Shown piece by piece: positions 16,813 to 19,570 of a stretch of 27,322 nucleotides of DNA (positions are counted from its first letter, which is position 1; each line of letters starts with the position of its first letter). The notes under the pieces were generated by a model, which saw nothing but the letters and a program-made list of their open reading frames with translations, did not search any database and was not told the origin of the DNA. A program made the position numbers and the translations under genes. This DNA comes from a virus, in the IMG/VR virus record IMGVR_UViG_3300008267_000279, positions 1 through 27,322 of that record, one strand, 5' to 3'.

Positions 16813-17102
16813 AAACACAGGATAAAATTGAAATTTTAAATTTAATAAAAAATGAAATAAAAGAGTTAGAACAAAATAAATTAAACGTATTGACTTTTTA
16901 TGATTTATACCAATTATTAAATAAAGCTGTTAATAAATTAAATTTAGAATTAATTGAAAACCATAAAAAAACAATAAAAGGAATAAGCGATTTGCATAAA
17001 TGTAAATGTTTACGACCTCAACCAAATTGTTTTAGTGGTTTATGTAGTTATTGCAACAAAATTATTGAAAGAAATATTACAACTAATCATTTTAAAAAAT
17101 AA
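16809..17102 (+). CDS. Hypothetical protein with C-terminal Zn-ribbon-like cluster
   Basis: A 97-aa protein: an acidic/lysine-rich helical region up to residue 60, then 'HKCKCLRPQPNCFSGLCSYC', where spaced Cys pairs (C-x-C ... C-x-x-x-x-C-x-x-C) can bind zinc. It would be a small DNA-binding or adaptor protein. It starts in ATGA overlap with the pseudogene and ends 1 bp before the HTH gene, so it belongs to the phage's own early operon. Function unknown. Confidence 0.55.
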   Translation: MKTQDKIEILNLIKNEIKELEQNKLNVLTFYDLYQLLNKAVNKLNLELIENHKKTIKGISDLHKCKCLRPQPNCFSGLCSYCNKIIERNITTNHFKK

Positions 17103-17103
17103 C

Positions 17104-17313
17104 ATGATAACAACCTTACAAACATTGGTCTTTGAATCTGGACTAAATCAAAATGAATTTGCTGAAAGAGTAGGCGTAAAATTAGGAACTCTTAAAGCAC
17201 AACTCGCAAAGAAAAACACTATTAAACACTCTTTAGAATACGCTCGTAAATTAGGACTTAATTCTGTAAAAGGCTATGAAAGTGGCTTTTATGTTGAGCT
17301 GGTTATTGGCTAA
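17104..17313 (+). CDS. Cro/Xre-like helix-turn-helix regulator, 69 aa
   Basis: Start at ATG 17104, 1 bp after the previous stop. Residues 5-48 ('LQTLVFESGLNQNEFAERVG' then 'VKLGTLKAQLAKKNTIKHSL') have the five-helix Xre plan with recognition helix around 'KLGTLKAQL'. The C-terminus 'GYESGFYVELVIG' may form a dimer strand as in Cro. It could repress the divergent promoters. Its stop codon overlaps the left end (AAC) of the first attC-like site, so the cassette array was joined exactly at the end of this gene, or this gene is itself a cassette gene whose left end has been lost. Confidence 0.7.
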   Translation: MITTLQTLVFESGLNQNEFAERVGVKLGTLKAQLAKKNTIKHSLEYARKLGLNSVKGYESGFYVELVIG

Positions 17314-17443
17314 CGTTCTCAGGCTTTGTGTCTGTTGCGACCAAAAATAAAACAAATTTTAATTTAAACACTAAAAATTACATATTATGACTGAACAAAA
17401 TTTAAAGACCGAGCCAAGCAATAGCACAAAACCTGTGTTATGT
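17308..17443 (+). repeat. attC-like site 1
   Basis: Left arm from AAC (17312-17314): AACG, spacer TTCT, CAGGCTTTGTG, T, CTGTTGC (to about 17338). Right arm 17417-17439, whose reverse complement reads AACA, CAGGTTTTGTG, CTATTGC. R' is GTTATGT (17437-17443). The loop (about 78 nt) holds the predicted ATG of the next gene. Confidence 0.8.
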
Positions 17444-17707
17444 GAAGTTAAGTGGATTCCTATATCCGAAATAAAAACCATTAACCCTACATATAGCATA
17501 ATGATTTGGCAACAGAATTTGTCAGATGAAGAATGTAGTAGATTTCAACGGGCATTTTGGTATAAAGACAGCCATATTGATATATATCCATTGACTCATA
17601 GAACTGTATTTGATTACAATGAAGAAAATGGTTTTTATGAAGGATATGACTTGGAAGGCGATATGTGTAGAGTAACACACTTTGCGATAGTAAACGCTCC
17701 AAATTAA
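17387..17707 (+). CDS. Cassette 2 gene, hypothetical; start uncertain
   Basis: The longest frame is 106 aa, but its ATG at 17387 and first 18 codons lie inside attC-like site 1 (17308-17443). GTG at 17435 (codon 17) or ATG at 17501 would give 90 or 68 aa. The body, 'YSIMIWQQNLSDEECSRFQR' and 'LTHRTVFDYNEENGFYEGYD', is an acidic, aromatic small alpha-beta protein of the kind common among integron cassettes. No family is known to me. It is the only ORF of its cassette and its stop is 8 bp before the next AAC. Confidence 0.55.
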   Translation: MTEQNLKTEPSNSTKPVLCEVKWIPISEIKTINPTYSIMIWQQNLSDEECSRFQRAFWYKDSHIDIYPLTHRTVFDYNEENGFYEGYDLEGDMCRVTHFAIVNAPN

Positions 17708-17711
17708 TTTC

Positions 17712-17828
17712 ACATAACGTTCTCCGGCTTGTAGTCAGTAGCTTGAAATCGGAACGATTTTAAAGCAATGAAAAAAGCGAAATATCAAATAAATACTAAC
17801 AAGCTATTGCTACAAACTGGTGTTAACA
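17712..17828 (+). repeat. attC-like site 2
   Basis: AAC at 17716-17718. Left arm CCGGCTTGTAG, T, CAGTAGCTTG after spacer TTCT. Right arm 17800-17820, reverse complement CCAGTTTGTAG, CAATAGCTTG. R' is GTTAACA (17822-17828). Preceding ACATAAC is the exact complement of site 1's GTTATGT. Confidence 0.8.
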
Positions 17829-17848
17829 GTAGCTTTTAAAAACAAGAA

Positions 17849-18139
17849 ATGAAACAAGATCTTTTCACTGAAGAATTTTTAAAAGAAATAGGTTTTACTT
17901 TAACTGAAAAGAAACAAAGTCAGTTTAAACCTTATTCAATTTATGGTAAAGCACAAGATAGAATTGGATTAACAATTTTACAATGGTGCGAAGAAGGTCA
18001 TTCTTGTACTTATTTTGGGGATAAATTAGAACCAAATACAAGTTTAGGAATATTAAAAGATGGAGGAACAAGAACTGTTTTTAATGGCTACGTTTATACG
18101 CAAGATGATGTTCGTAAAATATTATCGTTAACGTGGTAA
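17849..18139 (+). CDS. Cassette 3 gene, hypothetical 96 aa
   Basis: ATG 27 nt after the R' GTT of site 2, stop 14 nt before the AAC of site 3. The product 'MKQDLFTEEFLKEIGFTLTE' followed by 'FKPYSIYGKAQDRIGLTILQ' and 'LGILKDGGTRTVFNGYVYTQ' is a small beta-rich protein with a C-terminal 'DDVRKIL' helix. It is built like typical integron cassette products of unknown function. No secretion signal or membrane segment, so it should act in the cytoplasm. Confidence 0.7.
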   Translation: MKQDLFTEEFLKEIGFTLTEKKQSQFKPYSIYGKAQDRIGLTILQWCEEGHSCTYFGDKLEPNTSLGILKDGGTRTVFNGYVYTQDDVRKILSLTW

Positions 18140-18149
18140 ATAAAGTTAC

Positions 18150-18265
18150 TGTTAACGTTCCCACGCTTGGCATCAGTTGCCTAAGATGATAATCAAACGA
18201 ATCAATAACAAACAAATAATGTCAAAAGAAACACAAATGGCAATTGTGCCAAACGTGTGTTAAAA
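18150..18265 (+). repeat. attC-like site 3
   Basis: AAC at 18154-18156. Left arm CACGCTTGGCA, T, CAGTTGCC after spacer TTCC. Right arm 18239-18257, reverse complement CACGTTTGGCA, CAATTGCC. R' is GTTAAAA (18259-18265). The bases 18142-18156 are a 14/15 reverse complement of the start of cassette 3 (17822-17836). Confidence 0.85.
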
Positions 18266-18274
18266 AACGGTTTT

Positions 18275-19156
18275 ATGATAACAGTAAATTCAGTTTCAGG
18301 CGGTAAAACTTCAGCAAAATTAATGATTGATTTTCCTGCTGACCATAATATTTTTCAATTAGTTAGAACCGATGTTTTAAAAGCTAAGTTTATGAAAGGT
18401 AAAGACGAAAAAACACGTCAATTAATATCTGATAGAATTGGTTTTGAATTTGTTGGCACAATGGAAGAAGATGAATGTATTTATACAATTTTAGATTTAG
18501 AACAATTTACTGGTCAAGAAATTAAAATAAATACAAGTAAAAAAACATTTGAAGAAATGATTCTGCAACATGGTAATAGATATTTACCATCTCCACTAAG
18601 AAGATATTGCACAGAAGAATTAAAAATGCAGGTAGCTTTTGAATGGTGGAAAGAAAATATTAATGAAATTGTTGAAATGCGAATTGGTTATAGAGCTAAT
18701 GAAATGAGAAGAATGGCATCTAAAATAAAATCTTGCGATAAAAACAGAATAGAATCATTTAAGCACGTTATAGGAACAAAAGTTACTAAAAAAGGAACTC
18801 AACAAATATGGCAAACAACAAAATTTTCAAAGCCTATATTCCCTTTTATAGAATTAAAACCAACTTGGAAAGATGATATTATTAAATTTTGGCAAGATAA
18901 ACCTATAAGATTTGCTGAATTTAATAATTGTGTAGGTTGCTTTCATCGAGAACCAGCATTATTAAAATACCAATGGGAAAAGAATCCTGAAAAAATGCAA
19001 ATTTTTAGCGATTTTGAAAAAAACAGAAAGTACTCGAATGATACTTTAAAAGCCGATAAAGATATTACATACGAAAAAATTAAGAATCTAAACTTAAATG
19101 TAAAATTAACTGCTGATTCATTTTCAGAATGTGATTCTGGCTACTGCGGTTTATAA
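18275..19156 (+). CDS. Cassette 4 gene: PAPS reductase-like PP-loop enzyme
   Basis: A 293-aa protein starting at ATG 18275, 16 nt after site 3's GTT. A GTG at 18257 would start inside the attC. The PP-loop 'NSVSGGKTSAKL' (5-16, SGGKTS 8-13) binds ATP. 'LRRYCTEELK' (108-117) matches the R-x-C-T-x-x-L-K motif of phage PAPS reductase-family proteins. 'NNCVGCFHR' (Cys219, Cys222) and 'CDSGYCGL' (Cys286, Cys291) could hold an Fe-S cluster. The family includes sulfate assimilation, DndC-type DNA phosphorothioation and tRNA thiolation enzymes. Short phage forms have no proven substrate. It is a large, defined enzyme for a cassette gene. Its stop is followed by the AAC of site 4 within 13 nt. Confidence 0.8.
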   Translation: MITVNSVSGGKTSAKLMIDFPADHNIFQLVRTDVLKAKFMKGKDEKTRQLISDRIGFEFVGTMEEDECIYTILDLEQFTGQEIKINTSKKTFEEMILQHGNRYLPSPLRRYCTEELKMQVAFEWWKENINEIVEMRIGYRANEMRRMASKIKSCDKNRIESFKHVIGTKVTKKGTQQIWQTTKFSKPIFPFIELKPTWKDDIIKFWQDKPIRFAEFNNCVGCFHREPALLKYQWEKNPEKMQIFSDFEKNRKYSNDTLKADKDITYEKIKNLNLNVKLTADSFSECDSGYCGL

Positions 19157-19162
19157 ACTGTT

Positions 19163-19296
19163 TTTTAACGTTTGATAATTGTATTAGTAGCGTGCTGATA
19201 CAAAACGCATATCGCAATATAAAATATAGACAACAAGTAAAAAACAATTTTTAAATTAAACAATAACTAAGCTATTGATACAATTATTTGTTAGTA
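19163..19296 (+). repeat. attC-like site 4
   Basis: AAC at 19167-19169. Left arm GATAATTGTATTAGTAGC (to 19191). Right arm 19271-19288, reverse complement AATAATTGTATCAATAGC, 15 of 18 matching. R' is GTTAGTA (19290-19296). The bases 19154-19169 are a near-complement of the start of cassette 4 (18259-18274). Confidence 0.75.
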
Positions 19297-19319
19297 GCTG
19301 TGTTTTAAAAGACAATATT

Positions 19320-19523
19320 ATGAAAAAAGTAGCAAAAAAAACTGAATTTTTTTTAGACACAGAAAGAGAAATAAGTACAACAGGATTTAATCCAAGTAGA
19401 GGTTTTTATACTTATATAGAATTTTCAGATAAATCAAGTTTATGGATTGATTCAAAAGGAAATGAAATAGACGATAATAATTGGATAAAAAAACTTAATT
19501 ATTTTAAAGTATGTGTTGAGTAA
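19320..19523 (+). CDS. Cassette 5 gene, hypothetical 67 aa
   Basis: Start at ATG 19320, 30 nt after the GTT of site 4. A longer frame from 19275 would run through the attC arm. The product opens 'MKKVAKKTEFFLDTEREI' and continues 'GFNPSRGFYTYIEFSDKSSL' then 'NEIDDNNWIKKLNYFKV', a small strand-rich protein with acidic loops. The stop overlaps the half site that ends the array. Function unknown. Confidence 0.6.
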   Translation: MKKVAKKTEFFLDTEREISTTGFNPSRGFYTYIEFSDKSSLWIDSKGNEIDDNNWIKKLNYFKVCVE

Positions 19524-19536
19524 CATAGCTACTAAC
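19522..19536 (+). repeat. Half attC-like site ending the array
   Basis: AACATAGCTACTAAC is the 14/15 reverse complement of the beginning of cassette 5 (19290-19304), so it is its R'' end. The sequence then changes directly after AAC (19534-19536) to unrelated DNA, with no left-arm spacer and no right arm. Confidence 0.7.
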
Positions 19537-19570
19537 TATTCGATTGACGCTATAAAAGTATTACTTATTT

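Follow-up and report, generated by a model that had tools for sequence, protein, structure and literature searches.

The viral contig IMGVR_UViG_3300008267_000279, analysed over its whole length of 27,322 nucleotides (the window), carries a row of four hairpin sites of the attC type, each followed by a gene. We conclude, with a probability of about 0.86, that this region is an array of four gene cassettes without its own integrase in the contig (a cluster of attC sites lacking integron integrases, CALIN) and belongs to a phage type of integron working by the mechanism proposed below. The wider view, likely in our judgement if a little less secure, is that Bacteroidota phages harbour a distinct integron lineage with a compact recombinase that falls outside both IntI and Xer by current cut-offs, an attI of its own, reversed cassettes and start codons often placed in the attC loop. 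Its satellite arrays would be those of the window and of the Moomin phages of Flavobacterium, which trade cassettes in trans. The window comes from a tailed phage, with a terminase large subunit, a primase and an amidase among its proteins, and its closest named DNA relatives are Flavobacterium and Cellulophaga phages.

Four attC-type sites in the window

An earlier note, made from the letters of the window alone, reported four attC-like sites in one orientation, and all four are genuine. A covariance model derived solely from 63 recombinase-linked sites of other phages (its E-values are rough) scored them at 47.9-66.3 bits with filters off; the next-best place in the 5.4-kb stretch reached 14.4 bits. 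The alignment contains two-sided compensatory changes in 16 of 23 pairs and keeps one G.T pair in 61 of 63 sites. An ad hoc scan for AACG-stem-GTT gave the sites 34.5-40.0. No shuffle of the window (n = 20) produced a score of 30 or above, and the best other place in the window, on the - strand, scored 30.5. Rfam returned no match in the window. As described in the note, all sites share one orientation, all cassette genes lie on one strand and sites 1-3 have an extra T, found on the left arm. The note's description of small genes, one per cassette, fits all but the third gene, which encodes 293 aa. Four sites lie inside 2 kb with no integron integrase nearby, the arrangement of a CALIN, and that designation is further supported by the scan, the covariance model, a swapped cassette and complementary unit ends. 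The features are as follows.

17310-17442, + strand: attC-type site 1; covariance 66.3 bits, AACG-stem-GTT scan 34.5; copies in Moomin phages
17714-17827, + strand: attC-type site 2; covariance 47.9 bits, scan 40.0
18152-18264, + strand: attC-type site 3; covariance 55.9 bits, scan 38.5
19165-19295, + strand: attC-type site 4; covariance 54.5 bits, scan 34.5
17311-17714, + strand: cassette 1, site 1 plus a 106-aa open reading frame (ORF) of unknown function; boundaries TAACG/TAACG, unit ends complementary at 6/7
17387-17707, + strand: ORF of cassette 1, 106 aa, no family match; start codon within the loop of site 1
17715-18152, + strand: cassette 2, site 2 plus a 96-aa ORF; unit ends complementary at 6/7; gene relatives in phage arrays L021 and L022
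17849-18139, + strand: ORF of cassette 2, 96 aa, PHROGs match to phrog_37031, unknown function
18153-19165, + strand: cassette 3, site 3 plus a 293-aa ORF; unit ends complementary at 6/7
18275-19156, + strand: ORF of cassette 3, 293 aa, phosphoadenosine phosphosulfate (PAPS) reductase-like (phrog_424, PHROGs match)
19166-19532, + strand: cassette 4, site 4 plus a 67-aa ORF; 100% identical in contig L023; unit ends complementary at 6/7
19320-19523, + strand: ORF of cassette 4, 67 aa, no match in the family scan
19533-19546, + strand: 3' end of the array, TAAC↓TATTCGATTG (arrows mark the junction), position of the attI-like site; exact end of cassette 4, weak motif match
17101-17313, + strand: helix-turn-helix-like gene, 5' flank of the array and not a cassette; also flanks the L023 array

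Copies of site 1 occur at two places in morran9-1 (L002), at 95.6% and 86.5% identity, apparently before different genes. The gene of cassette 2 (window 17715-18139) is about 82% identical, from its ATG on, to stretches of two other viral contigs (L021 3842-4291 and L022 3837-4288). This similarity stops short of the site, suggesting that a gene and its site can become separated over longer times. No relatives of the cassette 1 gene were found in viral contigs.

Each cassette is a site plus the following gene

Read from the sequence, the cassette runs from one TAAC to the next, is cut at TAAC↓G and consists of a site and the gene that follows it. The clearest case is cassette 4, whose 100% identity to contig L023 begins exactly at TAACG (19166) and stops exactly at the next TAAC (19533), with both flanks unrelated. 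In integrons, the two ends (R''/R') that are joined when a cassette is excised as a circle are complementary to each other. We compared the six bases after GTTA of each site with the six before the TAAC closing the same unit. The window units scored 6, 6, 6 and 6 of 7, against only 1, 2, 2 and 1 within one site. Across 122 units of recombinase-linked phage arrays the mean was 4.93/7 (same-site 2.45; shuffled 2.28, sd 0.11), and it was 5.48 in 23 Moomin phage units and 5.61 in 28 host-array units.

Like integron cassettes, the units are thus bounded by two cores and cut within the core G↓TT (TAA↓C), as seen in cassette 4 against L023, the Moomin isolates and the Polaribacter phages Freya, and have complementary ends, at 6/7 in all four window units. 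The integron rule of a gene followed by its own attC in the same direction does not apply, because the site precedes the gene in the unit. The earlier note had taken the unit as a gene plus the following site, which has to be turned around: the site stands in front of its gene, and the cut falls at the 5' AAC↓G end. Compared with classic gene-to-attC cassettes, the genes thus point the other way.

Related phages link the array to an attI-like site and a recombinase

The earlier note saw no integrase in the window. This holds for the window, but a linked recombinase is present in other phages that have arrays of this type. A relative of the cassette 2 gene led to contig L021, in which six cassettes end at GGTAAC↓TATACTATATATG, directly followed by the gene of a 267-aa tyrosine recombinase. 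Relatives of this recombinase of about 267 aa are encoded in 193 matching stretches of the viral collection, of which 80 loci were read. In the scan around these 80 loci, upstream sites numbered 312 on the + strand and 21 on the - strand, and a further 8 lay downstream. In the 48 loci picked for at least two sites, the longest ORF of the unit was co-directional with the recombinase in 197 units and opposed in 14. An attI-like motif (TAAC↓TATnATATATA, counted where AAC precedes a match to TATTATATATAA in at least 8 of 12 positions) was present 36-77 bp before the recombinase gene in 61 of 64 loci, compared with 54 of 1240 control windows. The arrays lie in phage operons, and among the genes downstream of the recombinase are some with phage replication functions (clamp loader, thymidylate synthase, RNA ligase). 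Array, attI-like motif and recombinase are thus linked in these sequences. IMG/VR contigs can be miscalled, and the firm phage cases are the isolated Polaribacter and Cellulophaga phages.

The Freya isolates place insertions at this position. Freya_1, _6, _8, _9 and _10 have in common AAC↓ACCCCTATAACAAC about 55 bp before the integrase gene, joined to four different left sides. At AAC↓ACCCC, before its own integrase, Freya_10 has about 4.9 kb that are absent from Freya_1, and one unit of 304-305 bp is exactly missing in Freya_9 relative to Freya_10. A complete integron has an attI beside the integrase with cassettes inserted there: the recombinase-bearing phages offer the 61 of 64 attI-like motifs and the Freya insertions, while the window offers no recombinase and a weak attI.

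Two genome matches in the phage branch of the recombinase tree were also noted. One (L113, PAJP01000008.1), from a metagenome-assembled genome assigned to Methylophaga, has the phage-type layout and is probably a phage or misbinned contig; in the other (L211), no sites were found within its 3.8 kb.

A compact tyrosine recombinase below the IntI and Xer cut-offs

The phage enzyme belongs to the tyrosine recombinase superfamily by its catalytic R...K...HxxR...H...Y and its fold, with R133, K158, H217, R220, H243 and Y252 invariant across 35 rows. It is not an IntI by the usual definition (TIGR02249 above 265 bits plus the IntI-specific region): it scored 161 bits in two pieces and lacks that region (model positions about 179-237). 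It also fell short of the cut-offs for XerA (189 against 220), XerC (155.5 against 335) and XerD (153.9 against 330). The best structural match of an AlphaFold model (mean predicted local distance difference test score 86) was VchIntI4 (2a3v), followed by XerA.

In a quick tree, the phage rows, Freya, the phage Ingeline and four genome contigs formed one branch (Shimodaira-Hasegawa-like approximate likelihood ratio, SH-aLRT, 97). Bacteroidota chromosomal enzymes adjoined it, proteobacterial IntI were separate (100), and Flavobacteriales XerC and XerD stood apart from the phage recombinase. The long branches of Freya and Ingeline meet, so their exact place is unsure. The host relatives scored at most 124 bits per piece against TIGR02249 and also lack model positions 179-237, whereas proteobacterial IntI scored 299-487 bits. 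Bacteroidota chromosomes (L113-L192, L211-L240) widely hold integron-like arrays with an XerA/IntI-like recombinase; these enzymes fall below the IntI model cut-off, and standard tools may therefore miss the arrays.

Isolates of Moomin phages differ by exact units

Near-identical isolates of the Moomin phages differ by exact units, which points to live cassette swapping. Relative to lillamy9-1, a 100% identical 439-bp unit of lillamy9-7 is shifted from mid-array to the array end, beside the attI-like end. The same lillamy unit is present in one and absent from the other of sniff9-1 and sniff9-2, and mumin6-1 and mumin6-3 differ by one 506-bp unit. Across eight Moomin genomes, 184 of 322 alignment breakpoints lay within 8 bp of a site core, with 10.3 expected; related genomes recount the same breakpoint, and merging by genome and position gave 84 of 143. 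Site structure, unit boundaries and the gain, loss and movement of exact units are thus directly visible in the genomes compared. Freya, lillamy, sniff and mumin are isolated phage-host pairs in which cassette exchange could be studied directly. No recombinase was found in the Moomin phages, which are lytic on Flavobacterium.

DNA methyltransferase genes lie among the cassette sites of Moomin phages, including L011 and L015, at about 1.6-8 kb. Phages without one particular methyltransferase plate poorly on strain LMO6 (Nilsson et al. 2020, PMC7077304), and with methyltransferases among the cassette sites this published link may be a cassette effect.

The folded strand and the cassette genes

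Under symmetric scoring, the AACG strand showed G.T over A.C oppositions at 477:88 in phage sites and 241:135 in host sites, and the gene-sense strand of phage sites folded better than its complement. In phages the AACG strand carries the coding sense; in hosts it is the non-coding one. We infer that phages and hosts both use it as the folded substrate, which, since it is coding only in phages, makes the phage genes reversed relative to attC and attI.

Judged by open reading frames as the only criterion (L024-L103), a start codon lay within the loop in 81 of 120 long sites (about 120 nt) with a nearby ORF and in 4 of 60 short ones (about 85 nt). An ATG inside the attC loop means that the arm encodes the protein N-terminus, such as MKDLTHIRRFNESEENLNISDVRS (recurrent ...NLNISDV). 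Cassette ORFs have a median of 85 aa and at most 4 of 77 match Pfam; searched against Pfam and PHROGs they are mostly ORFans, with several methyltransferases among the PHROGs matches. Counter-defence is most likely their use. The cassettes of the window may likewise serve the phage against host defence, and are probably still mobile.

Proposed mechanism and points against it

A tyrosine recombinase would act on the gene-sense strand folded as an AACG...GTT hairpin, which corresponds to the 'bottom strand' of integrons, cut within the TAAC core and excise the unit as a circle. The circle would insert at the attI-like TAAC at the 3' end of the array and be read there within the phage operon. Many related phages have the putative catalyst encoded directly behind attI. 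As the window lacks a recombinase, its cassettes would move in trans, and for the window and the Moomin phages the enzyme may come from a co-resident phage or from the related chromosomal recombinase of the host.

Several observations weigh against this scheme. The attI-like motif at the window array end is weak, ranking 41 of 1245. The covariance check of the sites named in the earlier note succeeded only with filters off: under Infernal's default filtering that model returned nothing in the window, although the copy of site 4 in L023, identical to window site 4, scored 58 bits with those filters. Neither the scanned proteins of the window nor the annotated complete genome of lillamy9-1 yielded a recombinase, so that the enzyme acting there is deduced; the window contig is a 27-kb fragment, and the gene may lie in a part of the genome that it does not cover. 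The Freya array yielded only three sites, which implies that some added genes have no recognised site. Finally, the extra base of sites 1-3 sits on the 5' arm, as in the classic gene-to-attC orientation.

The alternative that survives best concerns the enzyme, and we regard it as a real possibility at somewhat less than even odds: the window and Moomin cassettes may be moved by the host chromosomal XerA/IntI-like recombinase, not a phage one. A relative of the recombinase is present in 92 of 149 Flavobacteriaceae genomes with an array downstream of its gene, host and phage sites fall into one class, and the short arms of window site 3 match Flavobacterium genome sites at 91-96% over 28-35 nt. 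Against this, attI-like ends of the phage type and reversed genes are phage features, and a search for the window cassettes in 199 Flavobacterium genomes, named as a check in the earlier note, returned short stretches only and no cassette gene.

A classic CALIN, with each gene joined to its following attC as the earlier note read them, is very improbable; on this view the cassettes would derive from a bacterial integron and be cut at the GTT end. The extra base on the 5' arm of sites 1-3 is where classic extrahelical bases lie, and Bacteroidota chromosomal arrays with the same site class show gene-to-attC order in those inspected. Among 222 sites, extra bases occurred on either arm, 48 on the 5' arm and 36 on the 3' arm. 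The classic order is already contradicted by the TAAC↓G boundaries, which place the site before its gene, and by the complementarity, which pairs each site with the end of the unit that holds the gene after it and not with the preceding one. The earlier interpretation is partly supported.

We give equally little credence to homologous recombination between similar intergenic repeats, with the hairpins as mere repeats. Different genes are preceded by copies of site 1 that are 86-96% identical, and some exchange may proceed by homology. The recombined sites in the isolates have only about 6 bp or less in common, which speaks against it: in lillamy, sniff and Freya the sites joined are dissimilar, always meeting at the AAC core, and relatives have a linked recombinase and attI motif. 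Least probable of all is that the hairpins are RNA elements of the early operon (processing sites, start-site structures or attenuators) with gene exchange secondary, for although loop start codons and the better folding of the gene-sense strand suit it, host arrays have the same site class on the antisense strand and RNA elements would account neither for the complementary unit ends nor for the exact breakpoints. In addition to recombination by the phage-type integron, the sites may have a second role in expression.

Comparison with known systems

The earlier note held that phage cassettes are rarely described; this is true, but they are not new. Qi, Rajabal, Ghaly, Tetu and Gillings (2023, PMC9892861) reported 17 phage CALINs, including one in Polaribacter phage P12002L, and, with IntI1, attC x attI1 recombination for 5 of 6 phage sites, including attC2 of P12002L. 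Their virulent-phage CALINs resemble the window array in combining attC sites with small genes, some of them methyltransferases, in lytic phages without an integrase. They were read as classic cassettes with 'divergent' attC directions, and no dedicated recombinase family, attI, reversed unit or exact isolate exchange was described for virulent phages. In P12002L our scan finds sites on the gene-sense strand only, so its layout is apparently also the reversed one. A search limited to an open-access library, without subscription papers or preprints, turned up no account of phage recombinases tied to arrays of this kind, so novelty is not certain. Integrase-less phage cassettes were thus already known, and the wider system of recombinase, attI and array appears new. 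It would provide a concrete mechanism by which phages swap single accessory genes, including methyltransferases.

Bacteroidota chromosomal arrays, as in Flavobacterium saccharophilum (L146) and F. terrisoli (L163), share the site class, the unit-end complementarity and a recombinase without the IntI-specific region. They differ in that their XerA/IntI-like recombinase, of 347-375 aa, is encoded ahead of the array and the order is the canonical gene-to-attC one; the phage recombinases form their own branch. Classic integrons (IntI, attI, attC) have in common with the phage system the core G↓TTA, the hairpin site, complementary cassette ends, insertion beside attI and mostly small ORFan genes. 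In the phages, by contrast, genes are reversed relative to attC, the recombinase is below the TIGR02249 cut-off and lacks model positions of about 179-237, and the array lies upstream of the recombinase and is read in its direction. Tyrosine integrases of phages, which serve prophage insertion, are the remaining comparison: the enzymes of Freya, Ingeline, Leef and Danklef are annotated 'integrase' and were taken to indicate a potential temperate life style (PMC8776804). The Freya isolates differ by cassettes exactly before the integrase gene, which makes cassette exchange its likely job and suggests a possible function for phage 'integrases' currently read as signs of lysogeny.

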